DNA of 47,955 nucleotides. Origin: a virus. The stretch's first letter is position 1; each line of letters opens with the position of its first letter. Positions 4,623-34,527 of the stretch are shown here, one piece after another. The notes beneath the pieces were generated by a model. The model saw only the letters and a program-made list of their open reading frames with translations, was not told the origin of the DNA and did not search any database. The translations under genes and the position numbers were made by a program. The DNA is taken from positions 1 through 47,955 of IMG/VR virus record IMGVR_UViG_3300043466_004014. One strand, given 5' to 3'.

Positions 4623-4630
4623 AATAAATA
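4623..4630 (+). promoter_or_regulatory. Late promoter-like element AATAAATA
   Basis: T4-type late -10 element ending exactly 5 nt before the ATG at 4636. Confidence 0.6.
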
Positions 4631-4635
4631 TAATT

Positions 4636-4881
4636 ATGAGTTTACAGATCAGCTTAGATGAACCACGTGTTATTGTTACCCAGCCAGAAGTAACAAAGAC
4701 TATAACCGAAATTGTAATTAGTAGAATTATTGATTTACCGGGCGAGAAAAAGGTAATCGCTGTTGTAGATAGCGAGCGAATAGAGCTATCAGAGTTATCT
4801 GATGACAATTACGATAATCCTCGCGAGTGGACTAATTTAGATGTAGTAGAAGCTGTTAAAAGACATTTTAGAGTGCCATAA
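4636..4881 (+). CDS. Small protein of unknown function
   Basis: An 81-residue acidic protein that I do not recognise. It begins MSLQISLDEPRVIV, has a beta-rich centre with many Val/Ile (TITEIVISRIIDLPGEKKVIAVVD) and ends in a helix-like tail (LDVVEAVKRHFRVP). No Cys, signal peptide or membrane segment is seen. The start is supported by an AATAAATA element 5 nt upstream. It ends 25 nt before a strong intrinsic terminator, so it is the last gene of its unit. Confidence 0.65.
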   Translation: MSLQISLDEPRVIVTQPEVTKTITEIVISRIIDLPGEKKVIAVVDSERIELSELSDDNYDNPREWTNLDVVEAVKRHFRVP

Positions 4882-4906
4882 TTTTTATACAAATATGTAA
4901 TAATAC

Positions 4907-4941
4907 AAACCGTTGATTCACTACGAATCAACGGTTTTTTT
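4907..4941 (+). terminator. Intrinsic terminator
   Basis: Perfect 13-bp stem (AAACCGTTGATTC / GAATCAACGGTTT), 5-nt loop ACTAC, then a T run. It closes the adhesin-GT-sulfotransferase unit. A TATAAATA element begins on the last T of the run. Confidence 0.9.
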
Positions 4942-4948
4942 ATAAATA
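4941..4948 (+). promoter_or_regulatory. Late promoter TATAAATA
   Basis: Exact T4 late consensus directly abutting the terminator and ending 5 nt before the ATG at 4954. Confidence 0.75.
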
Positions 4949-4953
4949 TAAAT

Positions 4954-5529
4954 ATGCCAACTATTAAAATAGCTAGCTTAGATATCGCTACAACAGTAAA
5001 CGGATATGAATTTCTCGTTATAGATGATGGCGTTCGTACAAGAAGAGCAACTATATTTACAATTACAAATACACTTTCAACAGATGTTGCACGCTCTCTT
5101 ACGAGTTCTTTTGGGCAGCTGACTAGTGGTTCCGCGTCTATAGAGTATGCTAATGAGATTGACTCATCGTTACAAGTACTTAACACTACAGTGCAATCTA
5201 GCAGCGCTGCCTGGGGTGTGACGGGTAATATAACCAACATATACAACATTGATAGCCAGGATTATACTATCCTGCCGGAAAATTTTTCAGGTTATATACG
5301 CAAATCTTTTAATGATGTGCATACGATTTATGTACCTACAGATAATAACAACTTCACACCGGGCGCTTCTATTACTATACGAAACGCTGGTCTTAGCGCT
5401 CTCACCATTTTACCGCTAAATAGTAACGTTGTTATTAATTACGATAATACATATGCGGCTAATGTTATAGACCCAAAAAATACTGCTCAGTTGTTATACA
5501 TTGGTGATAATAACTGGGATCTTATTTAA
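4954..5529 (+). CDS. Putative small virion (fibre-like) protein
   Basis: A 191-residue protein. The N-terminal part (IASLDIATTVNGYEFLVIDDG) resembles the short motif that opens many phage fibre proteins. The C-terminal part is a beta-rich, Asn/Thr-rich domain ending TAQLLYIGDNNWDLI, a common terminal motif of phage fibre domains. No enzyme motif is seen. It is the first gene of a unit that starts at the TATAAATA at 4941 and is followed 4 nt later by the S1-like protease gene, so the two are probably co-expressed and could be partners. Assignment is by motif flavour only. Confidence 0.55.
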   Translation: MPTIKIASLDIATTVNGYEFLVIDDGVRTRRATIFTITNTLSTDVARSLTSSFGQLTSGSASIEYANEIDSSLQVLNTTVQSSSAAWGVTGNITNIYNIDSQDYTILPENFSGYIRKSFNDVHTIYVPTDNNNFTPGASITIRNAGLSALTILPLNSNVVINYDNTYAANVIDPKNTAQLLYIGDNNWDLI

Positions 5530-5533
5530 TTAA

Positions 5534-7279: not shown

Positions 7280-7282
7280 ATA
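7275..7282 (+). promoter_or_regulatory. Late promoter TATAAATA (with leader)
   Basis: Exact consensus overlapping the stop codon of the protease gene. The next ATG (7306) is 23 nt downstream, so this is one of only two elements in the window predicted to give a real 5' leader. Confidence 0.65.
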
Positions 7283-7305
7283 ACAATAAGAACTAACTAC
7301 AAATT

Positions 7306-13016: not shown

Positions 13017-13024
13017 TATTTATA
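13017..13024 (-). promoter_or_regulatory. Late promoter TATAAATA (minus strand)
   Basis: Exact consensus on the minus strand ending 5 nt before the start codon at 13011, and 1 nt after the T run of the hairpin at 13026-13060. Confidence 0.75.
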
Positions 13025-13025
13025 C

Positions 13026-13060
13026 AAAAAAGCCCAGTAGCTAGCTACTGGGCTTTTTTT
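13026..13060 (-). terminator. Bidirectional intrinsic terminator
   Basis: Palindrome AGCCCAGTAG-CTAG-CTACTGGGCT with an A run on one side and a T run on the other. In context it ends transcription of the minus gene 13079-14038; no plus transcript is expected to arrive here, although the structure would work both ways. Confidence 0.9.
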
Positions 13061-14043: not shown

Positions 14044-14051
14044 TATTTATA
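14044..14051 (-). promoter_or_regulatory. Late promoter TATAAATA (minus strand)
   Basis: Ends 5 nt before the minus start at 14038. It lies in the 16-nt gap between divergent genes; the plus strand here reads TATTTATATAAATG, with the terminase ATG overlapping an imperfect reverse copy. Confidence 0.7.
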
Positions 14052-14054: not shown

Positions 14055-15761
14055 ATGCCTGCTAAATCTACAAAAAACGAATTTTATTTAGGTAATCCTA
14101 ATCTTCCAAATAAGCACTGGAAGGATGAGTATACGAAAGAGATGATTAATCATCTTAAAAAGAGTAAACAAAACCTTTTACATTTTGCTGAGAATTTTTT
14201 CTATATTATTGATCCAGATGCTGGTAAAGTATGTATTGAGTTGTTCCCTTATCAAAAAAGATGCTTAAGAACTATAAGAGATAACAGAAAAGCTATATTA
14301 CTTGCAAGTAGACAGGTAGGTAAGACTACTGTACTTACTATATACGCGCTTTGGATTGCATGCTTTAATGATTATCAAAATATAGTTATTGTAGCTAATA
14401 AAGAAGCAACAGCTATAGAAATTTTTAGGAGAATAAGACTAGCATATGAAGAATTACCTAACTGGCTGAAACCAGGCGTTAAAGAGTATGGCAAGACTTC
14501 ATGCGAATTTGAAAATGGATCACGTATAAGCATCAGCACCACTACCGGATCTGCAGCTCGTGGTGCCTCTATCAATTGTATTATTATTGATGAGATGGCT
14601 TTCATCGAACCAGAATCCATACTCGAGGATTTCTGGAGATCGGTATTCCCTACTATCTCACGATCTAAAAAATCAAAAGTATTAATAGCATCTACACCGA
14701 ACGGTACGGGTAATCTCTTTTACAAGTTGGTAGATGGTGCTGATAGGAATGAGAATGGATTTGTTTGTGAAAAGGTCATCTGGTCAGAGGTGCCAGGTAG
14801 AGATGAGCGATGGAAGCAAGAACAGCTTAAAGCTTTAGGCAGTATGGAGTCTTTCTTGCAAGAGTATGAATGTCAATTTCTCTCGCTTGGAGATTCATCT
14901 ATCGATGAAGAGTTATTTTATAATTTATCGCAGCAGTGTACTCCAGCGAAAATTATTTTAGATGACGGGCATTATAAAATATGGGAAGAGCCAGATCCGT
15001 CTAGAATTTATGTAGCCGGGGTGGATATATCTGAAGGAGTAGGGATTGATGCTTCTGTTATACAGATTCTAGATATAACTGATATTAGAGCTATTAAACA
15101 GGTAGCTGTTTACCACACTAGAGTAATGCCACCGCTAGAGTTTGCAAATAAGGTATACAGTGTTTTAAGAAATTGGGGATCTCCCCTTGCTCTTATCGAA
15201 CGTAATAATTGCGGCGCTCAGGTAGTAGATAGACTAGCTTTTGATATGGGGTATGAGAAGGTAGTATCGTACGGTGCTAAAGTCGCTAATAGGCAGAGGC
15301 CTCAGATGGGCATGATCGCACATACAAACACTAAGTATAAGGGCGTATTAAATATGCGTTATTTTGTAAATGAGGTTAAGGCGGTACAATTTCGAGATAT
15401 AGAAACATTAAAAGAGCTTAAAGATTTTGTACGGTATCCAAACGGAGTGTGGAGAGCTAAGGGTACCACGCATGATGATAGAGTTATGTCTTTAATATAT
15501 GCTCTCTATATTCTTGAAAAAGAATTGACAGAGCGGTATTTTGATGTTGTAGAATTAGATGAGCAGGGCAAGCCGATATTAATCGAGCCGATGGATTTCG
15601 GAGTCGCAATGTTCGAGCAGTCAACGTCTATATATCTTGATAATGAAATTATGGGGATAGGTTCAAACTACGTACCAGCTATTGTTTTTGGTATGGGTGA
15701 GGAAAGCGCGATAGACGATATAGCCGATCTACAGGCTGAAGGTTGGATGCGACTACAATAA
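14055..15761 (+). CDS. terL: Large terminase subunit (T4 gp17-like)
   Basis: A 568-residue, full-length packaging motor. The N-terminal ATPase has Walker A SRQVGKTT (84-92) and Walker B CIIIDE with D179 and catalytic E180; IASTPNGTGNLFY is the coupling motif. The C-terminal RNase H-like nuclease begins at VAGVDISEGVG with acidic D324 and continues to the conserved THDDRVMSLIYAL (D474, D475). It cuts concatemeric DNA and pumps it through the portal. The predicted small subunit is 16 kb away on the other strand. It diverges from the minus gene at 14038 across a 16-nt gap. No element in the 5-nt register precedes the ATG, so its own promoter is unclear. Confidence 0.95.
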   Translation: MPAKSTKNEFYLGNPNLPNKHWKDEYTKEMINHLKKSKQNLLHFAENFFYIIDPDAGKVCIELFPYQKRCLRTIRDNRKAILLASRQVGKTTVLTIYALWIACFNDYQNIVIVANKEATAIEIFRRIRLAYEELPNWLKPGVKEYGKTSCEFENGSRISISTTTGSAARGASINCIIIDEMAFIEPESILEDFWRSVFPTISRSKKSKVLIASTPNGTGNLFYKLVDGADRNENGFVCEKVIWSEVPGRDERWKQEQLKALGSMESFLQEYECQFLSLGDSSIDEELFYNLSQQCTPAKIILDDGHYKIWEEPDPSRIYVAGVDISEGVGIDASVIQILDITDIRAIKQVAVYHTRVMPPLEFANKVYSVLRNWGSPLALIERNNCGAQVVDRLAFDMGYEKVVSYGAKVANRQRPQMGMIAHTNTKYKGVLNMRYFVNEVKAVQFRDIETLKELKDFVRYPNGVWRAKGTTHDDRVMSLIYALYILEKELTERYFDVVELDEQGKPILIEPMDFGVAMFEQSTSIYLDNEIMGIGSNYVPAIVFGMGEESAIDDIADLQAEGWMRLQ

Positions 15762-15764
15762 ATA
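15757..15764 (+). promoter_or_regulatory. Late promoter-like element AATAAATA
   Basis: Overlaps the terminase stop and ends 5 nt before ATG 15770. This selects the 15770 start over an in-frame ATG at 15743. Confidence 0.65.
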
Positions 15765-16366: not shown

Positions 16367-16374
16367 TATAAATA
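16367..16374 (+). promoter_or_regulatory. Late promoter TATAAATA
   Basis: Exact consensus ending 5 nt before the sheath ATG at 16380. Confidence 0.75.
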
Positions 16375-16379: not shown

Positions 16380-18941
16380 ATGGCTAAACGCATTATACAA
16401 TCACCGGGGGTTGAAATCCAAGAAAGAGATCTCTCTTTGAGAGTTCCTACACCAGCAGGCACAACAGTTTACACAACAGGGTTTTCTGATCAAGGACCTA
16501 CTGATGAAGTGCTTGGAATTTCAAGTTTAACAGAATTCGAACGTATCTACGGTACGCCGAAATCAGCAGCTGAAAGATACTTTTTCCACACTGTAAAAGC
16601 AATTCTTGATTCGCAATCGAAACTCTTAGTTAACAGATTGCCATATGGTTGTGATTGCGGCGAAGGCTTTGGTTCATCTGTAGGTCTTCTTGCTTACCCT
16701 GTTAATGTTTTTAAAAGCGCTTCAGCAAATAATACATTGTCTGAGGTGTTAACTGGTTCAGGAAGTAGCTCAACGTTTACAAATGGTACATCTGGTGCTA
16801 CTTATCTCATCGGTAAACCAACCCAATTTAGTGTAACGCCTGATGAGTATTTAAAGATAATGAACGGTCAAGCATTTGACTGGTCTAACACACCTGCTAC
16901 AGCATTTACAGCTATTTCTAGCCTTGGTAGTGCAGGTATTATTGTTGTAAATAAAGGCCAAACAACAATTGATGATCGCTTTGGCGGGTATTATCTTGGC
17001 CTAGCAGACAATACAAATATTAACCCTGCTACAAACTTTGATGCAGTTAGAAGTGTTGTAACTGTTGCACAATCTGCAAATTCAACAACACCGTTATCAT
17101 CTTTCGTAACAATACCGAAATCACGCCTTGATTTCGCTTTATCTGCTACATCAGCCGCTGGCGATAACCCTGCTGTAGATTCTATCTCGCAAATAATGGA
17201 AGAAAAAATAACAGGTTATAATATCGCTAATAATTCTTTCAATGATACTTTAAATCTCGGCTTGTTTAAGCTTAGATCATCAGTATTTGGAACTGATGCT
17301 AGTTCTCTTGGTGCTATTCTTGAAGAAGGATTTAACGGCTCTATTGGCTATAACAGAAAAATTAGCAACGAAAGAGGTGGTGAAGCAATAAACTTCTTCC
17401 TCGAGAATCTTGAAAATAATTCGAGAAATATCGATATTTTGGTAAATCCTTATATGTCAAATCAATTTGACGGTGAATTGTTAAATGATGATGGCACACC
17501 AAAGAATAAAGTAAGAATTATTTCAAAACAACTCGAAACAGCGCTTTCTGCTGTTACTACTACAGCAACAGCTGCGTCTGCTGCCGCTTCAACTATAGCA
17601 ACAGCTACGTCTGCTGCCGCTTTAGCAACTTACAATCTATCACTAACCTCTGTAGCACTGAGTGCGGACGCTGAAGCAGTTAGAAACACTGCTTATCAAG
17701 CAGCAAGGTCCACTCTCTCATCGGCGTATGTTACTATTGAGAATAATCAAACAGCAGCGTTTAACTCTTTTGGTATTCATACAACACAGCTTTCTGCAGC
17801 TGCGTATCAAATTGGTTATGCCGATTCATTGTTCCCGCTTGGTGCATACGGACCAGCTAAAGTAACAGCAAAAACAATCGGTAATGTCCCTAATAAACTT
17901 CAACGCGCTTTAGATAGAGTTAGAAACTCCGATATTTTCGATATAGATATTATTGCTGAAGGTGGGTTAGGTACGATTTGGACTTATACTAACACAGCTG
18001 CTGCTTCAATGAGCTCTTACTTCGACGATACCAAAACAACTCCAGGTATTGAAGCTCTTAGAACTTCAAATGAGTTAGTAGATACAAGTGCGCGTGATGC
18101 TTATAACGCTATCTTTAGTAAATATGCAACTTTCGCCGGTCCTATTAAGGACGGTGGTAGAGGTGATATTCTTTATATTGCTGATCCTATCAGACAGATT
18201 CTTGTTTCAGGTAAAGACAGTAAGGTAATTAATAATCCTAGTAAGAACTTCTCAGTAGATATTTATTGGGCGTTGAGACACCAATTTGAAATGGCTAATA
18301 CATCGTACGCTACAGTTTATGCAAACTACTTTAAAGTATATGATGATAATGCGGGCATTTACGCATATGTTCCATCGTCTGGCTTTGCTGCAGCGAAGAT
18401 GGTTTCAACAGACGCAGATATCGGTCCGTGGGGCGCGCCAGCAGGATTTAACAGAGGCATTGTAACAAATGCTCTTGATGTTGCACTTGTACCTAACCAA
18501 AGACAACGCGATGATCTTTATACAGTTAGCCTAAACCCTATTACAACGTTCCCTGATCAAGGCATTGTTTTCTTCGGTCAAAAGACGTTGCTTAAGAAGC
18601 CAAGTGCGTTTGATCGTATTAATGTAAGAAGAAACTTCTTATATCTTGAAAAAGCAACTAAGTCAGTAATGAAGTTCTTTATTTTCGAAAATAACACACT
18701 CTTTACAAGAACGCAAGTTGTTAACACTCTTGCGCCGTTCTTCGAGAGAGTAAAAGTAGCGGATGGTCTATATGATTATCTTATCGTCTGCGATGAGCGT
18801 AATAATACACCGGAAGTTATTGATAATAATGAATTGGTTGTAGATATCTACCTTAAACCAGTTAGAACTGCTGAATTCATAAGAGTCAACTTCTACGCTA
18901 CAAGAACAGATGCTAACTTCCAAGAACTTATCGGTGGCTAA
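16380..18941 (+). CDS. Contractile tail sheath protein (T4 gp18-like)
   Basis: An 853-residue protein, longer than the 659 of T4 gp18. The N-terminus IQSPGVEIQERDLSLRVPTP followed by GFSDQGPTDEVLGISSLTEFERIYG is the classic sheath start (SPGV-E, then the 'GP-x-x-x-P' type turn). The C-terminal portion RRNFLYLEKATKSVMKFFIFENN, RTQVVNTLAPFFERVKVADGLYDYLIVCDERNN and VDIYLKPVRTAEFIRVNFYAT is the conserved sheath domain that makes the contractile lattice. Residues about 385-482 are an Ala/Thr/Ser-rich, probably helical insertion (TATAASAAASTIATATSAAA). It is followed by the tube gene, as in T4. Confidence 0.9.
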   Translation: MAKRIIQSPGVEIQERDLSLRVPTPAGTTVYTTGFSDQGPTDEVLGISSLTEFERIYGTPKSAAERYFFHTVKAILDSQSKLLVNRLPYGCDCGEGFGSSVGLLAYPVNVFKSASANNTLSEVLTGSGSSSTFTNGTSGATYLIGKPTQFSVTPDEYLKIMNGQAFDWSNTPATAFTAISSLGSAGIIVVNKGQTTIDDRFGGYYLGLADNTNINPATNFDAVRSVVTVAQSANSTTPLSSFVTIPKSRLDFALSATSAAGDNPAVDSISQIMEEKITGYNIANNSFNDTLNLGLFKLRSSVFGTDASSLGAILEEGFNGSIGYNRKISNERGGEAINFFLENLENNSRNIDILVNPYMSNQFDGELLNDDGTPKNKVRIISKQLETALSAVTTTATAASAAASTIATATSAAALATYNLSLTSVALSADAEAVRNTAYQAARSTLSSAYVTIENNQTAAFNSFGIHTTQLSAAAYQIGYADSLFPLGAYGPAKVTAKTIGNVPNKLQRALDRVRNSDIFDIDIIAEGGLGTIWTYTNTAAASMSSYFDDTKTTPGIEALRTSNELVDTSARDAYNAIFSKYATFAGPIKDGGRGDILYIADPIRQILVSGKDSKVINNPSKNFSVDIYWALRHQFEMANTSYATVYANYFKVYDDNAGIYAYVPSSGFAAAKMVSTDADIGPWGAPAGFNRGIVTNALDVALVPNQRQRDDLYTVSLNPITTFPDQGIVFFGQKTLLKKPSAFDRINVRRNFLYLEKATKSVMKFFIFENNTLFTRTQVVNTLAPFFERVKVADGLYDYLIVCDERNNTPEVIDNNELVVDIYLKPVRTAEFIRVNFYATRTDANFQELIGG

Positions 18942-18965: not shown

Positions 18966-18973
18966 ACTAAATA
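18966..18973 (+). promoter_or_regulatory. Late promoter-like element ACTAAATA
   Basis: Ends 5 nt before the tube ATG at 18979. Confidence 0.6.
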
Positions 18974-19554: not shown

Positions 19555-19590
19555 AAACAGCCTGTGAATATTGTATTCACAGGCTGTTTT
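19555..19590 (+). terminator. Intrinsic terminator after tail tube gene
   Basis: Perfect 15-bp stem (AACAGCCTGTGAATA / TATTCACAGGCTGTT) with a 3-nt loop TTG and TTTT. A GTTAAATA element starts immediately after it. Confidence 0.9.
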
Positions 19591-19598
19591 GTTAAATA
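19591..19598 (+). promoter_or_regulatory. Late promoter-like element GTTAAATA
   Basis: Abuts the terminator and ends 6 nt before ATG 19605. Confidence 0.55.
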
Positions 19599-21172: not shown

Positions 21173-21205
21173 TTGAAAAATTAACAAGATTAGATAAATT
21201 ACAGT

Positions 21206-21943
21206 ATGAGCGATATTAAGCAATTCATTCAGCAACTCGAAACAATTAACGACGGAGAAATTATCGATATTATAATTCCCTCTACAAAAAAGAAAGCAAA
21301 ATTCAGAGCGTTTTCCGTTAAGCAGCATAAAGAGATTATTAAGACAGTAATGGAAGGGTTTGATGGTAGTATTAAATCGCCGGTGACGCTCAATAACATT
21401 ATTAAGGAGAATAGTGTTGATAAGACATTAGAATTTAAGTTATATGATAGAAATTATATTCTTACACAATTACGTCGCTCGAGTATCGGACAGACCGTTA
21501 AAATAAACGATAATGAGTATAATCTTGATAGTTTGCCTAAGTTTGTTTATGAGTATGATGGTGATCCAAATATTGAATATAAAAATATTTTTGTTGAGTT
21601 GGATATTCCTACTCTAGACAAAGATACTTCTATTACTGAAAAAAGCATTCTTGAATTCGCTAAGCTATCAACAGAAGAGAAAAAAGTAAAAGATTCTATT
21701 AATATTCTGCTTACATATGAAATTATTAAATTCGTAAAGACAGTAAAAATTGGCGAATTGGTTCTTAACTTTGAAACTCTTAACTTGCACGAAAAGAAGA
21801 ATATTATTGAAAATCTACCCCTTATGCTCAACAATAAGATTGTTGATTATATTTCTAAATATAAAGAGTATGAGCAAAGTTTGTTGACATTTGATGACGG
21901 AACAAAGCTTACAATTGATGCGAGCTTCCTCACTAGCGAATAA
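21206..21943 (+). CDS. Baseplate hub subunit (T4 gp26-like)
   Basis: A 245-residue protein (T4 gp26 is 208). Residues about 20-100 (IIIPSTKKKAKFRAFSVKQHKEIIK... then ILTQLRRSSIGQTVKI) follow the T4_baseplate/gp26 family pattern: a beta hairpin 'P-S-x-K-K', the 'R-x-F-x-V-K-x-x-K' segment, and 'L-R-x-x-S-x-G'. The rest is helical and acidic. A GATAAATT element (one mismatch to the late motif) ends 5 nt before the ATG. It precedes the tape-measure-like gene, matching a hub role. Confidence 0.65.
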   Translation: MSDIKQFIQQLETINDGEIIDIIIPSTKKKAKFRAFSVKQHKEIIKTVMEGFDGSIKSPVTLNNIIKENSVDKTLEFKLYDRNYILTQLRRSSIGQTVKINDNEYNLDSLPKFVYEYDGDPNIEYKNIFVELDIPTLDKDTSITEKSILEFAKLSTEEKKVKDSINILLTYEIIKFVKTVKIGELVLNFETLNLHEKKNIIENLPLMLNNKIVDYISKYKEYEQSLLTFDDGTKLTIDASFLTSE

Positions 21944-21946
21944 ATA
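21939..21946 (+). promoter_or_regulatory. Late promoter-like element AATAAATA
   Basis: Lies across the stop of the gp26-like gene and ends exactly 5 nt before GTG 21952. The nearer ATG at 21948 opens only a five-codon frame, so the register supports the GTG start. Confidence 0.65.
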
Positions 21947-24900: not shown

Positions 24901-26727
24901 TTGTTTCAAGCGTATCAAGCTTCTGCGCCAGCAGCAAGCACAACGCCTAGCTCGCCAATGCCCATAGGTAGTAGCGCGATGGAGTCGATAGCTGACTTCA
25001 CATTCCGCAAAGAAGCGCAATTAAAAGGCGGTAAATTAGCAGTTTATAAACCACCTGCAGGCGATGGTGGTGGTGCTTTTGAGGTTGCAGGTATTACTGC
25101 GCGCTATCAACCTAAAGAAGCAGCAGAGCTTAAAGCATTAGTTGAAGCAGGTAGGCACCAAGAAGCTGAATCAAAAGCAAAACTATTCTTTGCTAAACGC
25201 GCTGAGCCTTTTATTAAGCATACAAATCGCGCCGGTATACAGCTACAACTTACAGATATTGTACATAACCGCGGCGAGGGGGGCTTGAGAAGTATACTTC
25301 AAAGAGCAACAGGAATGGCTAGTGAGAAAGATTATCAAAAATTAATCGAAACACTTAATACAGATCCTCAAGCTTTGGAAAAATTACACAAAGCTCGTGT
25401 ATCTTATGAAATGGAAGTAGTGGATCGTGGTCGTGCGAGTAGAGCAAAATTTAGACAGGGGCTAATGAATCGCTTTAATGCAGCGTATACTGCTTCGCAA
25501 CAAATAGAAGCTCGTGGGAGTGTACCTACAGCTCCTGCTCCAGCAGTTTCAGTACCAGTTGCAGCAGCTGCTGCAACTCCTGCTGCTGCAACTCCTGCTG
25601 CTTCATCCAGTGGACCACCTTATACAGAGCAATCAGTAATGCCTGCTGCAACACCTGCTGCTTCTGGTCAATTTCAACCGCAGTCAATAAACGTACCTGC
25701 TTCAGGAGGAGCACCAGTCACAACGACATGGTCAGGTGGCGAGTCAAATTTTGTTATAAATGGCGCTAATATGGGAGGACTTAATTCAGAGTTCCGCCGT
25801 CGCCTTGAAAGCATGGCAGCTGAATATAAAGAAAAAACAGGCAAGAAAATAAATGTGTCTGGTGCGAGAAGTGGTTATAGAACATATGAGCAGCAAGTTG
25901 CTATTGCTAAGACAGCAAGACCAGGGTATGCTGCAACGCCAGGTACATCAAACCACGGGTTTGGTTTTGCACTAGATATTAATACAGCGGATGCTAATAG
26001 AGCTGATAGTCTTGGGCTTCTTCAAAAATACGGATTACACAGGCCGATGATGAGTAAAGGATTGTTTGAGCCTTGGCATATCGAGCCTGTCGGTCTCAAT
26101 AAGGCAGCATTAGCTCAGTATCGTGCAAAAAGAGAGTCAGGTAAATTTTCAGGAGATCAATTAGCATTTGCTTTATCTGGTAGCGGATCTAGTGGACCAC
26201 CGTATACAGAACAATCGGTAATGCCTACTGCTATAGCTGCAGCAACACCTGCAGCAGCAGGTATAATGAGTAGTGGTTCATCATCACTAGGCAGTAGTAC
26301 TGATACCGGAGGTAGCTTGATAGGGGCGTTTCATGGTGGTATTAGTAGTTCTCTAAACTCTGCTACAACAGGCCTTCAAGATATATTTTCGAGCACAGGC
26401 GGTACAACAAGCATGTCTCAACCTTTCACCTCATCACCATCCGTTCCAGCGGTAGCAATGGAATCATCTTCACAAGGATTAATTGACAGTGTGGATAAGC
26501 TAGCGGGTAAATCAGAACAAGGCTCAAACAAGCAAGTAAGCGTTTTAGAAGAAATTCGCAATGGCATTGCTCAGCTTAATAAGAATATTGCAGGGTTATC
26601 GCGGGGTGGCGGTTCGGTAGCTCAGAGTACTGTACCGGGAATTGAATCGGGTATTGCTAGTACCCGTGGTGAAACTGATAAGATTACATCTCCAGGCATA
26701 TTTGGAGGTAAATTTAGCTTCGGATAA
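21952..26727 (+). CDS. Tape-measure-like tail protein with lysozyme-like and M15 peptidase domains
   Basis: A 1591-residue protein starting at GTG. Residues 90-410 are helical and hydrophobic (LPDWLKWLALLGGIATAAYALF). From about 416, three related hydrophobic modules begin at P416, P514 and P607. Four copies of an AKxxGW...SGWK motif lie between about 725 and 947, set in Ala/Pro linkers. Residues 1008-1180 look lysozyme-like (E1021 in FRKEAQLKGG, then GGAFEVAGITARY and HNRGEGGL); this is tentative. Residues about 1240-1395 are an M15 D,D-carboxypeptidase/VanY-type domain with zinc ligands H1335 and D1342 (HGFGFALD), H1376, and catalytic E1373 (EPWHIE). Place in the tail module and size fit a tape measure that carries peptidoglycan-cutting enzymes into the host wall. 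Confidence 0.75.
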   Translation: MEISDSVSKALMLFQLRDEDKGVPKPDKKGVIKDDERELDRLTDPEVKRVTQIATIFGQVLQVGIFKKGPEAGRLKAEQAARPTAGSGSGIPAAPKPGDKMGLNLFNLPDWLKWLALLGGIATAAYALFDTLGGVGRFLIKAAFKIGKWIDVVKDVFTSFGKYFDDIVDAFKGVKAFFKGFELSKFLDDLKARFPKTAELFGELKQKWLSAIDAVKSKWSKFLDDLFFEKLPEGVEGPRMRTKLGQALDRVKGWWSKSLDAILYEKLPDSTPDKSATRLQQAAKRISQWYNSLFIDVKAIKVDGQWVDDTQYTKLGERVAAVRDWWKNTVDRISNIGWLKKAEGVADIAGDAKKSLPAMVIDSAVELAKSLFGGIGETVKDAFKIGGEGGLIKTITTGFKNSPFLKAAMSKAKFIPVIGGFFNIGFAIARFKKGEIFKGTLELLSGLLDIAGIFTGGLGSGLSMAIDGFLLISDMQEDQAQKQKEGVKPFSGGFFSDLADGFMKYIAPILRYVPLVGSLFYFGDAYTAFKESNWGTGLLKLGQGFLALDPSGVGSAVNLGIDLISSLFTDKKEGGEEAKESKGGFFSWLKAEFVKVMSDREKLRTMPVIGSLIYGADAWDAFKAGQWGKGFGLLGRALLGIVPGLNLGIDFIMSFFDDNKVEEPAEIKSNGGFIDMVKNGFDVVVKKVTEWVELIQKWVADKIKAVGDLVPSFLKPDEKEYTEEAKQNAKKYGWGEDVKGYEDSGWKSKEEYERIKQQSSPQAQAATPAATPPPLTATTQVSTPPAQPVQAATPAATIAPTEMRAPATQSPNRGRGAAAAEAAKRAEETLPVQTQAVTPATGQTETERRAKEMGWNTVEEYKNSGWKQNPAVSKGIKDSTTTVLQNAKAMGWNTVEEYKNSGWKQNPAVVKGAESAEDPVLLRNAKAMGWNTVEEYKNSGWKQNPAIIAGAAQAAAPAATISPEVQAPGMQAALAMPTTSGSPLFQAYQASAPAASTTPSSPMPIGSSAMESIADFTFRKEAQLKGGKLAVYKPPAGDGGGAFEVAGITARYQPKEAAELKALVEAGRHQEAESKAKLFFAKRAEPFIKHTNRAGIQLQLTDIVHNRGEGGLRSILQRATGMASEKDYQKLIETLNTDPQALEKLHKARVSYEMEVVDRGRASRAKFRQGLMNRFNAAYTASQQIEARGSVPTAPAPAVSVPVAAAAATPAAATPAASSSGPPYTEQSVMPAATPAASGQFQPQSINVPASGGAPVTTTWSGGESNFVINGANMGGLNSEFRRRLESMAAEYKEKTGKKINVSGARSGYRTYEQQVAIAKTARPGYAATPGTSNHGFGFALDINTADANRADSLGLLQKYGLHRPMMSKGLFEPWHIEPVGLNKAALAQYRAKRESGKFSGDQLAFALSGSGSSGPPYTEQSVMPTAIAAATPAAAGIMSSGSSSLGSSTDTGGSLIGAFHGGISSSLNSATTGLQDIFSSTGGTTSMSQPFTSSPSVPAVAMESSSQGLIDSVDKLAGKSEQGSNKQVSVLEEIRNGIAQLNKNIAGLSRGGGSVAQSTVPGIESGIASTRGETDKITSPGIFGGKFSFG
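23197..23940 (+). repeat. Three hydrophobic repeat modules in the tape-measure-like protein
   Basis: Three units of about 93-98 residues, each starting PVIGG/PLVGS/PVIGS, then a helix with A/Y-x-A-F/R-K, a G-W-G-x-G-like turn, L-L-G-x-x-L, and a second hydrophobic helix ending in a charged DKKE/DDNK. The pattern suggests helical hairpins, possibly membrane-inserting. Confidence 0.65.
24492..24795 (+). repeat. Three near-identical copies of an AKAMGWNTVEEYKNSGWKQNP unit
   Basis: Copies start near 24492, 24604 and 24718 with spacings of about 112-114 bp; a diverged fourth copy lies at about 24124-24213 (AKKYGWGEDV...SGWKSKEEYE). They are linked by short variable Ala/Ser/Thr segments. Confidence 0.8.
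25609..26226 (+). repeat. 36-bp direct repeats flanking the M15 domain
   Basis: The segments 25609-25644 and 26191-26226 both encode SGPPYTEQSVMP and are 582 bp (194 codons) apart in the same frame. They bracket the M15 peptidase domain exactly and differ at only a few third positions. Confidence 0.8.
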
Positions 26728-28273: not shown

Positions 28274-29601
28274 GTTATCAGTCTAATATTGGAAATAGTG
28301 TTTATACTTTCGATCTTAATGTTTTTGTAGATAAAGAACAGTTCGGTTCTGGCGGTACCGGCTCTGCAATACCTATGGATGGTCTTTCTTACCTTGAAAT
28401 TATTGATAATTTAGCAAATATTGGCGTTTATGGTAAGGCTGTCTTTAATAATTCTTTTAATGTTTTAAGTGATTTAGGGCTTAATTCTGGAGCAAATAAA
28501 AACCCACCTTTACTTACTATAAAAATAGTAAATAATGATTTTGGTGGAAAAAATCCTGATGAAACTTCGATTATTGCTGCGGTACAGCTGCAGCAAAGTC
28601 AAGAAAAAACTAAAAATACTGTCGCAAAAAAATTACATTATGATTTTGAAGAGTCTCAAATTTGTCAGCTCAAACAACAAAATTGTGACTCGGGTAATAG
28701 TAAATTAGGTAACGGTACTACTATTAGCGATGTACTAATGAATACTTTGACATATGGTGCTGGTACGGGTGGTACAAAGGGTGAGGTAAGAACTACCGGT
28801 ACACCAAAAGCAATACCGGGTATTGTTACAAATGGAGATACTTATTATACCGCAGTAGAAAAATATAACAAGCTTCTCTTTAATAACGACCACGGGCCTG
28901 GCTTAGTGCAGCTAAGGAATAAATCTGGAAAGCGAGTATTTACATCATCTTTAATTGGCGAAACAACAAAAAATCTTATCCGTGCTGTTGAAAGTAATCA
29001 ATCACTAGCGACATATGTCTCGGAAACCTTTACCATATCACCGCTTGAATCGAATAAAGTAGATTTACGCGAAACAAAAATTCAAGAGTATGATCTTGAT
29101 AGACCTAATTATACGGATTTGTTTGCGAAGAAATGGCTTAACTATACCTTAACGCAGCATTCTGCAAAAGATATAAATATAAACGATAATGGGGTATTGT
29201 TATATGATGATTTAAAATTAGAGTTTGAAAAAATAGTATGTGGAGGAAAAAAATCAAACTTACCAACGCGTAATGAATTAACTGAAAAAAAAGACACGTT
29301 AAAATATACAGCAATTCCTGGTCAATTTCCTGTAGAAGATGGTCAAAATTTAAATCTTATCGATGTTAAATGTTCGACGTTCAGGAGTTTTATTTTTGAT
29401 AACACCGCAATATCTTTTAAGGTAACAGGTAATACGTTTCGGAAACCGGGTATGTTTATTGGTATAAATGATTTTAATAAAAAAGGCAACGATTCGGAGC
29501 TAACTGGTCTCTGGTATGTTACTTCAGTGCGACATATTTTTGAAGAAGCTCTATATACAAATGAAATAATTGCTGTGAAATTTTTCACTCTTACTAAATA
29601 A
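28270..29601 (+). CDS. Putative baseplate hub protein (gp27/gpD-like)
   Basis: A 443-residue protein. N-terminal SYLEIIDNLANIGVYGKAVFNNSFNVL and LLTIKIVNNDF, with SFRSFIFDNTAISFKVTGNTFRKPGMFIGI, LTGLWYVTSVRHIF and NEIIAVKFF at the end, follow the beta-rich two-barrel layout of hub proteins (T4 gp27, P2 gpD). T4 gp27 has 391 residues. It would form the trimeric platform under the tube on which the spike sits. It overlaps gp53-like by ATGA and is followed by the spike-like gene, which supports the assignment. Confidence 0.55.
   Translation: MSYQSNIGNSVYTFDLNVFVDKEQFGSGGTGSAIPMDGLSYLEIIDNLANIGVYGKAVFNNSFNVLSDLGLNSGANKNPPLLTIKIVNNDFGGKNPDETSIIAAVQLQQSQEKTKNTVAKKLHYDFEESQICQLKQQNCDSGNSKLGNGTTISDVLMNTLTYGAGTGGTKGEVRTTGTPKAIPGIVTNGDTYYTAVEKYNKLLFNNDHGPGLVQLRNKSGKRVFTSSLIGETTKNLIRAVESNQSLATYVSETFTISPLESNKVDLRETKIQEYDLDRPNYTDLFAKKWLNYTLTQHSAKDININDNGVLLYDDLKLEFEKIVCGGKKSNLPTRNELTEKKDTLKYTAIPGQFPVEDGQNLNLIDVKCSTFRSFIFDNTAISFKVTGNTFRKPGMFIGINDFNKKGNDSELTGLWYVTSVRHIFEEALYTNEIIAVKFFTLTK
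29593..29600 (+). promoter_or_regulatory. Late promoter-like element ACTAAATA
   Basis: Overlaps the stop of the hub gene and ends 5 nt before ATG 29606. Confidence 0.6.
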
Positions 29602-29605
29602 ACAT

Positions 29606-31807
29606 ATGCTAATATATAGTACTAATTTCGCTGATAAGCTCTTCGGTTATGCAATTAGTAGAGATTTTATTAAAAACAGTTCACCTTTTTGTGATCTGAT
29701 CGATGATCCTATACTCGGGCCAGAGATAGATCTCGCTATTAATTTTAATCGTGGTATAAATGGTGATAAAGAAGCAGCAACAAACTTCACCAATACATTA
29801 GCTCTTTGCAGTGGTATATTTGATCCATATACAGTAAAATTTTGGACAAAAAAAATGTATAATTATCCGGTTTTTGATCCGGAAATAGAGCGTCTTAAGT
29901 TTATATATTACAATCTTGACGAACTAACAACAATCGGTGGCGGTGGTAGTGACGCTAGTCGTGATTTTGCCAGTCTTCTTAAAAACGCTCTTAAGGATTG
30001 TTTGAATTCACCGTGTAATTTATTTTCCCCAACATCTAACAGTGTTGGTCTAATAACACAAGTCGCGCCAGCTTTAACAGAAAGTACTATTTTACCCGTT
30101 GGTAGTCTTAAAGGTCAGATGTCGAACATAACATCGGGCATGGATACGACTATTATGAACAAAGTACCTGAAATATTTCAGGGCGCTTTTGTGCGACTTT
30201 CACAAGCGACTACCGCAGCGTGGGGCGATGTGTGTAACACGGTAATGGGAAAGAAAACAGCGGAAGAACTAGCTAAGCAAGCAACCAGTGGAACACTAAG
30301 AGATAAACCTTCAGGTCATTTATTTACACCAGACATAAACGCGTTTGCATCTTTAAGTTTTTCGTCTACGAATATAATGGCGAGCATTATGGGCGATCTT
30401 GGCGGATGTTCACGAAAAATGGAGCATGAAAGTCAGTATAATCCTTACTCTAGCAATCAAAACAAGAGCACACCTGCTGATATTCGCGGTAACAATGTTA
30501 ACGGAAACGCATATGATCAGTTACCTAACGGACAAACAACAGGTAACCCACTACCTATGGGAGTTGATCAGGCGTTAGGTGTTGCTGGAGCTTCGAACGA
30601 TATAGAAGTCAAGCCTTGGGACGGAAATACAGCCTTAACAAACGAAGTTACTCTAGAGTTCTCACCTGATGCCCCATATAGCTATACAGTTTTTGGAGCG
30701 TGGTTGGATGAAAAAGCAAAAACTGTACATGTCGAGGATATTAACCTGGAGCAAAAAACAACAGGTAGTGAACAAATAGCTGGTATTGCTAATATAGGTG
30801 AAGTTATTACACCGATTAAATCTGGTATAACAGAAGCTGTTTTATTGCAAGATGCTCTCGAAAAGAAAAAACTACCCGCTAACTTTACAAAAGGATACGC
30901 ATCATTATACGCGCAAGGCAATAAAACAAACGAAAACCTTAATAAAATAACCGGTTCAATGAACCACGGTGTGTCTTTAGGCTTAACGGTTATTAATAAG
31001 CTTTTAGGCGTTGGTAACCAGTCGATTGAATATTCTAAAATTAAAGCTTTACAGCAGCAAAATAAAGTTTGGGGCGTTATAACGATTAATAACAAAACTA
31101 CATTAGTACAGATGATTGATTGCTCAGAAAGCGATAAGATGTCTCGTGTTAAGTTTACACCATATGCGTGGAAAAAAGTGACAGGTAAGGATTTCGCTTC
31201 ACCGTCGACTACGACATATGGTGCATGGAAAGAGACAAAATACAAATCACATACAAATGCCGGTCCAATGAAGTTCAGGTTTGCGATTGGTACTGAAGGT
31301 GAGATAATGCAGTTACTACAAAAGAAAACCGCATCATATACAACAGGTACGGGGTCTGGTAATGTTAAGTATTCGCAAAGCTTCGCTTCTTCTACAAGAA
31401 ATAAACCATTACAACCGAGATTGTTTAATGCTATACAGCAAGCAGCAAACACCTCTAAAGTAGATGTTGTTATATATAGCGGTGGACAGGATCAGTATCG
31501 TAGAACCGGATCAAATAGACATAATGATGGTTGGGCTGCTGATGTATGGTTGTATTCTAATGGTAAGCAGTTAAATTGCCGTAACCCTGATGATATACCT
31601 ATTTTATCGGAATTTGTACGTGCAGCTAAGCAAGCTGGCTGTACAGGTGCGGGAATGGGACCAGGTTACATGGGCGCTGTAGGATTACATATCGATATGT
31701 CATGGGGCAATAGCGTACCTGCAGGTAGCGGAGCAGTTACATGGGGAGATCATAAACCAGGTGGTAGCGGCCGTACACCGGCATGGTTGCGACAAGCTTT
31801 CGCTTAA
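29606..31807 (+). CDS. Spike-like tail protein with C-terminal M15-type peptidase
   Basis: A 733-residue protein. The C-terminal 150 residues carry an M15-type zinc peptidase pattern: VVIYSGGQDQYRRTGSNRHNDGWAADVW with ligands H639 and D646 (HxxxxxxD), and GLHIDMSWG with H695. The N-terminal 340 residues are helical with paired Cys and unrecognised. The middle (VWGVITINNKTTLVQMIDC and RVKFTPYAWKKVTGKDFASP) is beta-rich, possibly an OB-like or barrel unit. A gp5-like role (hub-associated cell-wall cutter) fits the position after the hub gene, but with an M15 peptidase in place of lysozyme. Its stop overlaps the minus small-terminase gene by 4 nt. Confidence 0.65.
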   Translation: MLIYSTNFADKLFGYAISRDFIKNSSPFCDLIDDPILGPEIDLAINFNRGINGDKEAATNFTNTLALCSGIFDPYTVKFWTKKMYNYPVFDPEIERLKFIYYNLDELTTIGGGGSDASRDFASLLKNALKDCLNSPCNLFSPTSNSVGLITQVAPALTESTILPVGSLKGQMSNITSGMDTTIMNKVPEIFQGAFVRLSQATTAAWGDVCNTVMGKKTAEELAKQATSGTLRDKPSGHLFTPDINAFASLSFSSTNIMASIMGDLGGCSRKMEHESQYNPYSSNQNKSTPADIRGNNVNGNAYDQLPNGQTTGNPLPMGVDQALGVAGASNDIEVKPWDGNTALTNEVTLEFSPDAPYSYTVFGAWLDEKAKTVHVEDINLEQKTTGSEQIAGIANIGEVITPIKSGITEAVLLQDALEKKKLPANFTKGYASLYAQGNKTNENLNKITGSMNHGVSLGLTVINKLLGVGNQSIEYSKIKALQQQNKVWGVITINNKTTLVQMIDCSESDKMSRVKFTPYAWKKVTGKDFASPSTTTYGAWKETKYKSHTNAGPMKFRFAIGTEGEIMQLLQKKTASYTTGTGSGNVKYSQSFASSTRNKPLQPRLFNAIQQAANTSKVDVVIYSGGQDQYRRTGSNRHNDGWAADVWLYSNGKQLNCRNPDDIPILSEFVRAAKQAGCTGAGMGPGYMGAVGLHIDMSWGNSVPAGSGAVTWGDHKPGGSGRTPAWLRQAFA

Positions 31808-32241
31808 ACATCTACAACATTATTATTATCAACAATAGCTTTCATTATATCCTCTCTCGAAAGGAGAATTTTTGTCTTGTTATCTGTTATATTAATTCTC
31901 TCTCTTGACTCTATATCCATTTGCTTTACCTGAACTTGTGTTTTGTTTTTCTCGTCAGAGATATATACTTTATTGAGAGTTTCTATTGCAGAAGATGTTG
32001 CAGATATCAGTTCAGCTAATGCTGCTACATCCTTTGCATCGGGAGCTGAAGCGACATATTCCTTAACATCATCCACAATGTTAAGTGATCTGGTGACAAG
32101 TTTACCTGAATTTTTAATAATAAAATCTTCAAGCTGGTCTTTAGTAAGAGGTATCTCTTCAGGTTCTTTTTTTGCTGAAATAGTTGTATTTTTTAGCTGA
32201 GAGATAATATCATTTACAGCATCGTCTAAATCTGTATCCAT
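31804..32241 (-). CDS. terS: Small terminase subunit (T4 gp16-like)
   Basis: A 145-residue protein (T4 gp16 is 164). Central long helices SLNIVDDVKEYVASAPDAKDVAALAELISATSSAIETLNKVYISD form a helical hairpin. A linker and a C-terminal segment (MDIESRERINITDNKTKILLSREDIM) end the protein. This matches gp16 in layout: a central coiled pair, then 'M-N-I-x-x-A-T...S-x-x-E-L-M'. It would form the ring that recognises DNA and regulates TerL. An ACTAAATA element ends 7 nt before the ATG. It is far from and antiparallel to terL, unlike T4. Confidence 0.6.
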   Translation of the reverse strand: MDTDLDDAVNDIISQLKNTTISAKKEPEEIPLTKDQLEDFIIKNSGKLVTRSLNIVDDVKEYVASAPDAKDVAALAELISATSSAIETLNKVYISDEKNKTQVQVKQMDIESRERINITDNKTKILLSREDIMKAIVDNNNVVDV

Positions 32242-32248
32242 TAATGTA

Positions 32249-32256
32249 TATTTAGT
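32249..32256 (-). promoter_or_regulatory. Late promoter-like element ACTAAATA (minus strand)
   Basis: Ends 7 nt before the minus ATG at 32241. It is in the divergent gap with dut, which itself lacks a late element. Confidence 0.5.
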
Positions 32257-32291
32257 CTTGATTTCTATATATCAAATATTATCATAGTTTT

Positions 32292-32723
32292 ATGAGTGAA
32301 GTTACATTAAAATTTAAGAAAACTAGCGTTGATGCTAAGCTGCCTACTAAAAATAACGAATCTGATACAGGGTTTGATGTTTATTGTGTAGAAGATAAGG
32401 TTATTCCTGCGAGAGGTAGTGCTGTTGTAGATGTAGGTTTAGAATTTGCATTTATTTCCCCTGGTTACTGGGTTAAAGTAGAAGGAAGGTCAGGTCTTGG
32501 CTTCAAACACAGTATTTCACCTCATCCAGGTATTATCGATAGCGGATATCGTGGAAATGCAGGCATTAAGCTTTATAATAACACTGCTACTGATTATGAA
32601 GTCAAGTCTGGTGATAGAATCGCGCAGTTTGTAGTGTATAGGAACTATAGTGTAGCTGTAGAAGAAGGTGATACAGAAGAATCTGATAGAGGAGCAAACG
32701 GATTTGGTTCATCAGGTAAATAA
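32292..32723 (+). CDS. dut: dUTP diphosphatase (trimeric dUTPase)
   Basis: A 143-residue protein with all five dUTPase motifs: SDTGFDVY (24-31), GRSGLG (65-70), GIIDSGYRG (80-88, with catalytic D83 and Y86), GDRIAQFVV (107-115), and the flexible C-terminal arm RGANGFGSSG (133-142). It hydrolyses dUTP to dUMP and PPi, keeping uracil out of phage DNA and feeding dTMP synthesis. It is an early or middle-type gene set inside late structural genes. No TAAATA element precedes it. A weak sigma70-like pair (TTGATT, 16 nt, TATCAT) lies upstream. The clamp loader gene follows at once. Confidence 0.95.
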   Translation: MSEVTLKFKKTSVDAKLPTKNNESDTGFDVYCVEDKVIPARGSAVVDVGLEFAFISPGYWVKVEGRSGLGFKHSISPHPGIIDSGYRGNAGIKLYNNTATDYEVKSGDRIAQFVVYRNYSVAVEEGDTEESDRGANGFGSSGK

Positions 32724-32724
32724 T

Positions 32725-33648
32725 ATGTTAGATTTCAATAAAATTTGGGTAGAGAAGTATAGGCCACAAACTCTTGACAGTATTATTCTATCAGAAAGGA
32801 ATAAAAATATTGTTAAGGGGTTTGTGGAAGAGATTCCTAACCTATTATTTGTTGGTACACCAGGTACAGGTAAGACAACGCTAGCGAAAATTATTGTAAA
32901 TGATATTCTTAAGTGCAATTTCTTATATATTAATGCATCTGATGAGTCAGGTATCGATACTATTAGACATAAAGTTACTAATTTCTCACAAACTAAGTCG
33001 TTTGATGGTAAAGTTAAGGTGGTTATTCTAGATGAGTGCGATGGTCTTACGAGTCAAGCACAGGCAGCTCTTCGTAATACGATGGAGTCTTTTGCTAAGT
33101 ATACTCGGTTCATTCTTACAGCTAATTATAAGCATAAGATCATCCCCGCACTACAGTCGAGATGTCAGTTTCTTGATATCAAGCCCACACTAGAAGACGG
33201 TGTAAAGAGAATTTACGGTATTCTTAAACAAGAAGGTATTGAAATAGATGATGCACAGAAGAAGAAGTTTGTTGAGCTTGTGAAGGCTAATTTTCCCGAT
33301 CTTCGTAAGGCTATTAATGAAATTCAAAAGAATTGTATTAGTGGCTCATTAGCTATTACCAATATTAATGTAGATAATACTCTACTTAAAGCGATTTATA
33401 CTGCTATTAATGAAAAGGATGTTATTTCACTGAGAAAGTTCCTTATTGAAAACGAAAATACATTCTACGGCGACTATGATACGTTGATGCGTGATTATCT
33501 TAACTATCTATACAATCAACCTGTACAAGATCTTAAAAAGAAAGAGATGATCGCTGTTATCGCTGATCATCTCTATAAAAGCGCGTTCGTTCTTGATAAA
33601 GAAATTAACTGCTTTGCTTGTTGGATTAATTTAGAACGTATTAGCTAA
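32725..33648 (+). CDS. 44: Sliding clamp loader subunit (T4 gp44 / RFC-small-like AAA+ ATPase)
   Basis: A 307-residue protein (T4 gp44 is 319). The start at 32725 gives MLDFNKIWVEKYRPQTL, the canonical first motif; a longer frame from 32668 overlaps dut and only adds non-homologous residues. Motifs: Walker A GTPGTGKT (44-51), Walker B VILDEC (100-105), sensor 1 FILTANY (129-135), and the arginine finger SRC (145-147). The C-terminal collar domain is present. It would load the ring clamp (gp45-like) onto primed DNA with a gp62-like partner; neither is in the window. It sits 1 nt after dut and overlaps the convergent minus gene by 8 nt. Confidence 0.93.
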   Translation: MLDFNKIWVEKYRPQTLDSIILSERNKNIVKGFVEEIPNLLFVGTPGTGKTTLAKIIVNDILKCNFLYINASDESGIDTIRHKVTNFSQTKSFDGKVKVVILDECDGLTSQAQAALRNTMESFAKYTRFILTANYKHKIIPALQSRCQFLDIKPTLEDGVKRIYGILKQEGIEIDDAQKKKFVELVKANFPDLRKAINEIQKNCISGSLAITNINVDNTLLKAIYTAINEKDVISLRKFLIENENTFYGDYDTLMRDYLNYLYNQPVQDLKKKEMIAVIADHLYKSAFVLDKEINCFACWINLERIS

Positions 33649-34222
33649 TACCTGCCATATATTCGTGGGTATAAGAAGCAACAGCTGGTGAAGGTGTTAT
33701 AGGCTTTGATGGAATTGTTGTATTTTTATCAGGTGTAGAAATATTTGTGTCGCTTAGTTTACCATCACCTCTATCTGTCTTATTAGCGATATTGTCTTGT
33801 TGCTCAACCTCAGTAGGAACTATGTGCGTGTTGTTTGGTCTCTTAGCACCGTCGGGAATCGGTGGTAAGTTGGGGTAAAAAGTATTAGGAGTTCCTAATT
33901 CAGGCGAAATATTAACATAATGCGTGTATCTACCACCGCCGTTATCAAGTGCGAGTGTTAATTCTACATCATTTGAGCTTGTCTGCGGATTGCCGGGATA
34001 TCTTGGAGATGTAGAGTCTTTAATTCCCGTTACCCTAATATGAAGACCAGCTTCAATCATTTGATCAATCATGTCTTTTGTATTTTGACCTAACTTTTTA
34101 TAGTTTTCTGATGATTTAAAATTGTCGTTAAATTTAAAAACATCGCCTACCAAGAACCCACCACGCTCGTAGCGAGAAAAATACGCTTCAAATAGTGTTA
34201 AAAATTTCTTTGCTCTAGCCAT
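33641..34222 (-). CDS. Protein of unknown function (probably virion-associated)
   Basis: A 193-residue protein starting at 34222 (MARAKKFLTLFEAYFSRYERGGFLVGDVFKF); the longer frame from 34243 runs through the promoter element and is not used. A TATAAATA element ends 5 nt before this ATG. The N-terminus resembles the short helix that opens many head proteins of marine T4-like phages. The centre is a small beta domain (LHIRVTGIKD...DVELTLALDNGGGRYTHYVNI). The last 70 residues are Pro/Thr/Asn-rich and probably disordered. No family is recognised. Confidence 0.55.
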   Translation of the reverse strand: MARAKKFLTLFEAYFSRYERGGFLVGDVFKFNDNFKSSENYKKLGQNTKDMIDQMIEAGLHIRVTGIKDSTSPRYPGNPQTSSNDVELTLALDNGGGRYTHYVNISPELGTPNTFYPNLPPIPDGAKRPNNTHIVPTEVEQQDNIANKTDRGDGKLSDTNISTPDKNTTIPSKPITPSPAVASYTHEYMAGIS

Positions 34223-34227
34223 ACTAT

Positions 34228-34235
34228 TATTTATA
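34228..34235 (-). promoter_or_regulatory. Late promoter TATAAATA (minus strand)
   Basis: Exact consensus ending 5 nt before the minus start at 34222; it sets that start over the upstream ATG at 34243. Confidence 0.75.
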
Positions 34236-34241
34236 CAAACC

Positions 34242-34249
34242 AATAAATA
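34242..34249 (+). promoter_or_regulatory. Late promoter-like element AATAAATA
   Basis: Ends 5 nt before ATG 34255. Together with the element at 34228-34235 it makes a compact divergent promoter pair 6 nt apart. Confidence 0.65.
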
Positions 34250-34254
34250 AATAT

Positions 34255-34527
34255 ATGGAATTTGACCGTCTTGTACAAGAAATACTTACTGAAAAAGCAG
34301 CTGGTCGGTGTACGAAGGTAACAGGTCAGCAATCTTCAACCAGATCTGATAAAAAATATATGAGATGTGTACGAGTTAAAGGCAAGCTCAAGAGAATACA
34401 CTATGGTGACCCTAATTTAAGAATTAAAAAATCAAATCCTAAAAAGCGTAAGTCGTTTAGAGCGAGACATAAATGTTCTACAGCTAAACCAGGAACCGCT
34501 CGGTATTACTCGTGTAAGAACTGGTAA
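34255..34527 (+). CDS. Small basic phage protein (KSFRARHKC motif)
   Basis: A 90-residue, strongly basic protein. It opens with a short acidic helix (FDRLVQEILTEK), then a Cys/basic domain: RCVRVKGKLKRIHYGDP, LRIKKSNPKKRKSFRARHKC, and TARYYSCKNW. Similar small proteins with this RIxxGDPNxRIKK...SFRARHxC...YWSC pattern recur in T4-like marine phages, and I recall no settled function. The Cys residues and basicity suggest nucleic-acid binding, perhaps in the capsid. It is expressed from its own late element. Confidence 0.6.
   Translation: MEFDRLVQEILTEKAAGRCTKVTGQQSSTRSDKKYMRCVRVKGKLKRIHYGDPNLRIKKSNPKKRKSFRARHKCSTAKPGTARYYSCKNW

Follow-up and report, generated by a model that had tools for sequence, protein, structure and literature searches.

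Genes and Predicted Late Promoter Boxes of the Window

The window, i.e., the whole stretch of DNA that was analysed (47,955 nucleotides), is a linear 48-kb piece of the genome of an uncultured T4-like phage. Its packaging and tail genes code for the terminase gp17, the sheath gp18, two tail-tube proteins, a gp26-like protein, gp25, gp6, and a gp14-like protein; dUTPase and the clamp loader gp44 are encoded as well. Among the hits listed, the terminase shows at most ~38% identity to isolated phages, and IMG/VR contains at least 110 relatives of it. One of the five long contigs considered below, G005, is near-identical to the window. The long contigs carry few tRNAs.

The original prediction claimed that an 8-mer is separated from the downstream start codon by exactly 5 nt (gap 5) at 11 genes on both strands, one of them starting with GTG. 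The 8-mer consists of a TAAATA core preceded by TA, AA, CA, or AC. All 11 coordinates held exactly (Table 1), which makes 11 of the 32 window genes. The near-match reported before the gene at 21206 held too, being TAAATT-N5-ATG, and so did the set of five genes with the motif off register, at gaps 6 to 8. No conserved -35 sequence was found upstream of the boxes.

Table 1. Predicted promoter boxes, terminators, and contrasting genes in the window. Gap, nucleotides between the box and the start codon.
Feature	Position	Strand	Remark
Late promoter box AATAAATA	4623..4630	+	Gap 5 to ATG 4636
Intrinsic terminator, 12-bp stem and T run	4908..4941	+	Adjoins next promoter box; 12 nt left before ATG 4954; same site in G005
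Late promoter box TATAAATA	4941..4948	+	Gap 5 to ATG 4954
Late promoter box TATAAATA	13017..13024	-	Gap 5 to ATG 13011
Intrinsic terminator	13026..13054	-	T run ends 1 nt short of box of gene 13011; same site in G005
Late promoter box TATAAATA	14044..14051	-	Gap 5 to ATG 14038; inside 16-bp gap to terminase start 14055
Late promoter box AATAAATA	15757..15764	+	Gap 5 to ATG 15770, tail tube
Late promoter box TATAAATA	16367..16374	+	Gap 5 to ATG 16380, tail sheath gp18
Late promoter box ACTAAATA	18966..18973	+	Gap 5 to ATG 18979, tail tube gp19
Intrinsic terminator	19557..19590	+	Immediately 5' of box of gene 19605; same site in G005
Late promoter core TAAATA	19593..19598	+	Gap 6 to ATG 19605
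Variant box TAAATT	21195..21200	+	Gap 5 to ATG 21206, gp26-like baseplate hub
Late promoter box AATAAATA	21939..21946	+	Gap 5 to GTG 21952
Late promoter box ACTAAATA	29593..29600	+	Gap 5 to ATG 29606
Late promoter core	32249..32254	-	Gap 7 to ATG 32241
dUTPase and gp44 clamp-loader genes	32292..33648	+	Replication genes without in-register motif; internal contrast
Divergent intergenic region, 32 bp	34223..34254		Two complete late promoters, each at gap 5
Late promoter box TATAAATA	34228..34235	-	Gap 5 to ATG 34222
Late promoter box AATAAATA	34246..34253	+	Gap 5 to ATG 34255
Late promoter core	34572..34577	+	Gap 8 to ATG 34586, gp25
Late promoter core	36922..36927	+	Gap 7 to ATG 36935
Late promoter core	39022..39027	+	Gap 7 to ATG 39035

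Register of the Box and the Start Codon

One objection is that the register reflects chance, AT-rich composition, or start codons picked to fit. It is supported by the fact that TAAATA is not over-represented across the window (84 observed vs. 102 expected); the enrichment concerns register, not motif abundance. The controls speak against it. Shuffling each 50-nt upstream region gave a mean of 0.09 gap-5 genes, with a maximum of 3 in 20,000. Rotating each upstream region, which preserves the motif and breaks the register, gave a mean of 0.41 and a maximum of 5. In 78 related contigs, 414 of 1893 TAAATA lay at gap 5 and 99 at gap 6, as against 0 at either distance in shuffled sequence. When homologous sites were counted once per ortholog, gaps 3 to 10 yielded 14, 4, 314, 122, 59, 30, 37, and 19, respectively, over a baseline of ~10.

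The original prediction had named beforehand a genome-wide distribution of distances with a sharp peak at 5 as support for its claim, and such a peak was obtained along the full length of the five long contigs. Similarly, the gap-5 register dominates 80 loci retrieved via gp23. The sheath gene gp18 has the box at gap 5–7 in 87 of 91 orthologs, and the box is conserved at orthologous starts whose N-termini are also conserved. Furthermore, the register is missing in T4, cyanophages, and XG4, which have similar AT content. In general, these data show the register and its lower edge at 5 directly, and all but exclude chance.

Phylogenetic Reach and Comparison with Known Systems

In the textbook case of T4 late transcription, the mRNAs have leaders with Shine-Dalgarno sites. 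The boxes of the window resemble T4 late promoters (gp55/gp33/gp45-dependent, TATAAATA) in sequence, gene class, occurrence on both strands, absence of a -35 element, and an AT-rich segment downstream, and a gp55 homolog is present in relatives of the clade. What differs is the distance. The box lies 14–40 nt upstream in T4, cyanophages S-WAM2 and S-CRM01, two marine single-cell phages, phiM9, phiM12, and XG4, T4 and the cyanophages having a leader with a Shine-Dalgarno site in this interval, as compared to 5–7 nt in the window's clade. T4's own gap-5 matches were considered and apparently fall within other genes.

The phylogenetic limits of the register were shown with a terminase tree, where a 100/100 branch separates the phages with the distant box, together with pelagiphages, from the rest. 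Among the latter the short register occurs in 23 of 28 representatives, down to ~40% identity. A representative was labelled leaderless if it had more TAAATA at gaps 5–6 than at 14–40, which is crude for short contigs. A gp23 tree of the T4 superfamily tentatively groups the clade with RM378, with a 100/100 split; RM378, T4, and phiM9 have very long branches in it, and Far-T4 reference contigs were left out.

RM378, a cultured Rhodothermus phage of the Far-T4 group, has its own box, TATTTAA, with a peak at gap 6 and abutting terminators. Eleven of its genes have TATTTAA at this gap, among them those at 29547, 35631, and 54965. It differs from the window's clade in the heptamer, in having kept some Shine-Dalgarno sites, and in its scrambled genome. 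Judged from sequence alone, RM378 seems to preserve the geometry despite the changed box. Neither promoters nor leaderless mRNAs come up in the Far-T4 paper (PMC4360716). The cultured Pelagibacter phage HTVC008M has three gap-5 genes with TAAATA-N5-ATG, in particular the tail-completion gene after gp23 (position 75830 of its record), at which several of its relatives keep the register, sometimes behind a terminator. Unlike in the window's clade, most late genes of HTVC008M and its relatives are leadered with Shine-Dalgarno sites (ratio to shuffled sequence 3.2).

The same geometry is known from leaderless genes of Deinococcus-Thermus, in which a -10 motif stands ~6–7 bp before the ORF (PMC12340547; PMC3160421). 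There it serves a housekeeping sigma and cell genes, whereas the window's clade has a T4-type late box at phage virion genes.

Gene Classes and Late Transcription Factors

Restriction of the register to virion genes was shown by comparing T4 orthologs recognised in the five long contigs, including G005. A box at gap 5–8 was present in 22 of 41 virion orthologs vs. 1 of 35 replication or early-type orthologs (Fisher p 6e-7). About half of the virion orthologs thus have no box at these gaps, and many of them are likely to be operon-internal. In place of the box, a structured leader precedes the major capsid gene gp23; no Rfam families were found in the window or in the gp23 leaders.

The original prediction also proposed a check for late-sigma genes similar to gp55, gp33, and gp45. 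Late sigma gp55 is encoded by three relatives (phrog_234, E 1e-23 to 1e-25) but not by the window, a 48-kb fragment. For gp45 there is only a weak match in one relative (phrog_223, E 5e-6). Pfam PF02916 gave no match for gp45, and the AlphaFold model of the candidate is too poor for use (pLDDT 37). Relatives probably do have gp45, yet the support is weak. A search for gp33 did not find it.

Promoter Signs and the Predicted Transcription Start

The T4 late box spans -13 to -6 (PMC2988020). By this numbering, the start codon itself begins at +1 when the gap is 5. This would explain why the counts fall off so sharply from gap 5 to gap 4, since a leader cannot be shorter than zero and gap 4 would place +1 inside the codon.

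Gap-5 sites have T at -1 in 78%, C in 12%, and G in 0%, with A or G at +1. In genes without the motif, -1 is T in 48%, A in 32%, and G in 8%, and at gap-6 sites it is A in 52%. Because these two groups differ from the gap-5 sites, the -1 preference belongs to the promoter rather than the start codon. One may still suppose that the promoters are real but their start sites loose, so that most late mRNAs have leaders of 1–10 nt. The commonness of gaps 6–9 in the ortholog-collapsed counts favours this possibility. Against it stand the sharp floor at 5 and the initiator pattern that gap-5 sites show at -1/+1, and we consider it unlikely.

Gap-5 sites are flanked upstream by AT-rich blocks at -16, -27, and -38, spaced 11 bp apart (z 13.6 vs. 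1.9 at genes without the motif). Flavobacterium promoters have AT-rich motifs one helical turn apart, at -18 and -28 (PMC6847099). Such phasing is characteristic of double-stranded DNA.

The placement of the motif at the starts of transcription units is also shown by counts. It was found at 49% of genes next to a divergently oriented gene, at about 30% of same-strand genes separated by 1–20 nt from the upstream gene, and at only 1% (2/186) of genes overlapping an upstream same-strand gene. At 53 sites from many contigs, some of them homologous, the T run of an intrinsic terminator ends 12–25 nt before the start codon, mostly 12–16. Three window genes have such abutting terminators (4954, minus 13011, and 19605, the last at gap 6). 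In ten divergent pairs only 27–36 bp separate the two starts, and each side has its promoter, the pair 34222/34255 being the window example. There is no space for a leader at such genes, because terminators abut the box or the divergent starts are so close. AT phasing, the -1/+1 pattern, transcription-unit starts, abutting terminators, and tight divergent pairs are five independent signs in favour of a promoter over a ribosome signal.

Shine-Dalgarno Use and Initiation of Translation

The original prediction noted that no Shine-Dalgarno site fits in a 5-nt gap. This is true but not diagnostic. In the window's clade the ratio of Shine-Dalgarno sites to shuffled sequence is 0.8–1.2 in every gene class, as compared to 1.9–5.6 in T4, cyano-, pelagi-, and rhizobial phages. 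Since close relatives use no such sites before any class of gene, their absence is weak evidence for leaderlessness. A sub-branch (L151, L152, L270, and L281) has a ratio of 5.7, and there the register is mostly missing. Four gp18 orthologs have no box, and the three displayed (L151, L270, and L281) have AAGGAG-type sites. Among ~136 gap-5 starts in the five long contigs there is no TTG, and GTG makes up 16% of gap-5 starts. Leaderless GTG starts are poorly translated by E. coli. Phage-encoded ribosomal protein bS21 was considered as an explanation and rejected, as it is missing from ten records of the clade.

An alternative view is that TAAATA-N5 is a translation signal at the RNA level, A-rich or Kozak-like as in Bacteroidota, on leadered mRNA transcribed from an upstream start. 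In its favour, the clade is without Shine-Dalgarno sites, as in Bacteroidota (PMC6847099), and the motif supplies an A at position -6 and frequently another at -12/-13, where A reportedly aids initiation in that phylum. However, the Kozak-like criterion of A at -3 is not met, gap-5 sites being T-biased there (T 49%, A 34%). The motif is missing from overlapping operon-internal genes and from replication genes, except in the few cases counted above. Phasing of 11 bp belongs to duplex DNA, terminators and narrow divergent gaps exclude an upstream start, and RM378 retains the register with a different box. This alternative is therefore very unlikely.

The original prediction left a second option beside leaderless late mRNAs, namely a motif of dual use, which serves as a promoter box in the DNA and is also recognised by ribosomes on readthrough transcripts. 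The same-strand genes with the motif at separations of 1–20 nt lend it some support, since some of them are perhaps read through. Nevertheless, it is disfavoured and also very unlikely, given the dozens of genes at which a terminator abuts the motif, the near-absence of the motif from overlapping genes, and the phasing at the DNA level. The leaderless option is the one well supported, by inference from many genomes.

Host

Bacteroidota hosts are inferred from low GC, the lack of Shine-Dalgarno sites, and nearness to RM378. The Bacteroidota promoter pattern TTG-N17-23-TAnnTTTG showed no enrichment. Phage contigs in bacterial genomes gave no host clue: none was found with the terminase, and gp23 gave only distant T4-like matches. 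In F. johnsoniae most mRNAs are leadered, 87% of leaders being longer than 10 nt (PMC6847099), so the state of the phage would differ from this norm.

Proposed Mechanism

The preferred reading is that T4-type late promoters produce leaderless or nearly leaderless late mRNAs. It is very likely (probability about 0.86), being inferred from many genomes with no RNA 5' end mapped in the clade. On this reading, a gp55-like late sigma acting with the host RNA polymerase would recognise the NNTAAATA 8-mer as a T4-type late -10 box. The lineage may have moved this box right up against the start codon; at gap 5 transcription would then begin from the first base of AUG or GUG, and at gaps 6–9 one to a few bases before it. 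Ribosomes would then initiate on the 5'-terminal start codon without Shine-Dalgarno pairing. The presence of gp55 in relatives is shown; reading of the box by gp55, the exact +1, and translation from a terminal start codon, which presumes a host competent for leaderless translation, are inferred.

Implications for T4-like Phages

Late promoters of the T4 type are already known, and so are leaderless genes whose -10 box lies close by (PMC12340547, PMC3160421). No report of the two combined in a T4-like lineage, or of leaderless late promoters in T4-like phages, was found in the open-access literature searched. A bolder reading, which is likely, is that an entire deep branch of the T4 superfamily makes much of its virion from leaderless late mRNAs and has abandoned Shine-Dalgarno initiation. 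The state would be old, as RM378 shares it, though with a changed box. One sub-branch would have gone over to Shine-Dalgarno leaders, probably on moving to another host.

The orthologous genes with and without leaders make a natural contrast, and many independent promoters are offered with base-exact predictions. The register may also provide a better rule for calling start codons. RM378 is a cultured phage in which leaderless translation could be tested directly in a Bacteroidota-type host. In general, a sister lineage that is common in metagenomes appears to share the box of T4 and yet to start its message at the start codon.

The gp23 Leader and Neighboring Genes

In the leaderless clade, the relatives of the window whose late mRNAs are predicted to be leaderless, the major capsid gene gp23 is without the leaderless register (a short gap, mainly 5 nt, between the TAAATA late promoter box and the start codon). 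As observed across 82 gp23 loci, its leader is about 80 nt long and contains a conserved CCTGA(G/A)...GGTCGA, around which two hairpins are predicted, with AAAGGA often located 3′ of this hairpin region. Changes on both sides were seen at 8 of the 9 predicted pairs in 16 sequences. A comparison of the leader with Rfam gave no matches at the gathering score. The leader could be an undescribed cis-acting RNA.

In pelagiphages, most late genes are leadered, whereas those directly 3′ of gp23 have TAAATA at gap 5, and several of the latter are immediately preceded by a terminator.

Features of the window and compared genomes (G, long related contigs; L, compared records)
Feature	Record	Position	Strand
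Small acidic protein gene	window	31804-32241	minus
Small acidic protein gene	G001	25228-25665	
Small acidic protein gene	G004	18167-18610	
gp23 structured leader	G001 (L102)	about 114900-114979 (14890-14980)	
gp23 structured leader	G003 (L105)	15305-15400	
RM378 TATTTAA, examples	L374-L376	29547; 99207	
Pelagiphage gap-5 genes after gp23	L082	37560; 37831	
Pelagiphage gap-5 genes after gp23	L181, L183, L192, L237		

Other Observations

A small acidic protein of no known family (MxxDLDxxVNDIIxQLK...) is a conserved neighbor of dUTPase and gp44; a late promoter at gap 7 is predicted for the window copy.

Base composition is odd at window positions 43384-47229, with GC of 0.49, GC skew of -0.39 and AT skew of +0.33 on the coding strand at 44001-46000. 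The ORF at 46579-47229 translates into Thr/Asn/Asp/Tyr repeats, possibly a tail-protein repeat region read in the wrong frame.

The Rhodothermus phage RM378 has an apparent late promoter box, TATTTAA, at a constant 6-nt gap before the start codon, of which no prior description was found.

Four records (L151, L152, L270 and L281) form one sub-branch inside the leaderless clade, in which the register is mostly gone and Shine-Dalgarno use is strong (a signal 5.7 times that of shuffled sequence). Judging from sequence alone, this sub-branch would represent a natural change of initiation mode, from the register to Shine-Dalgarno.
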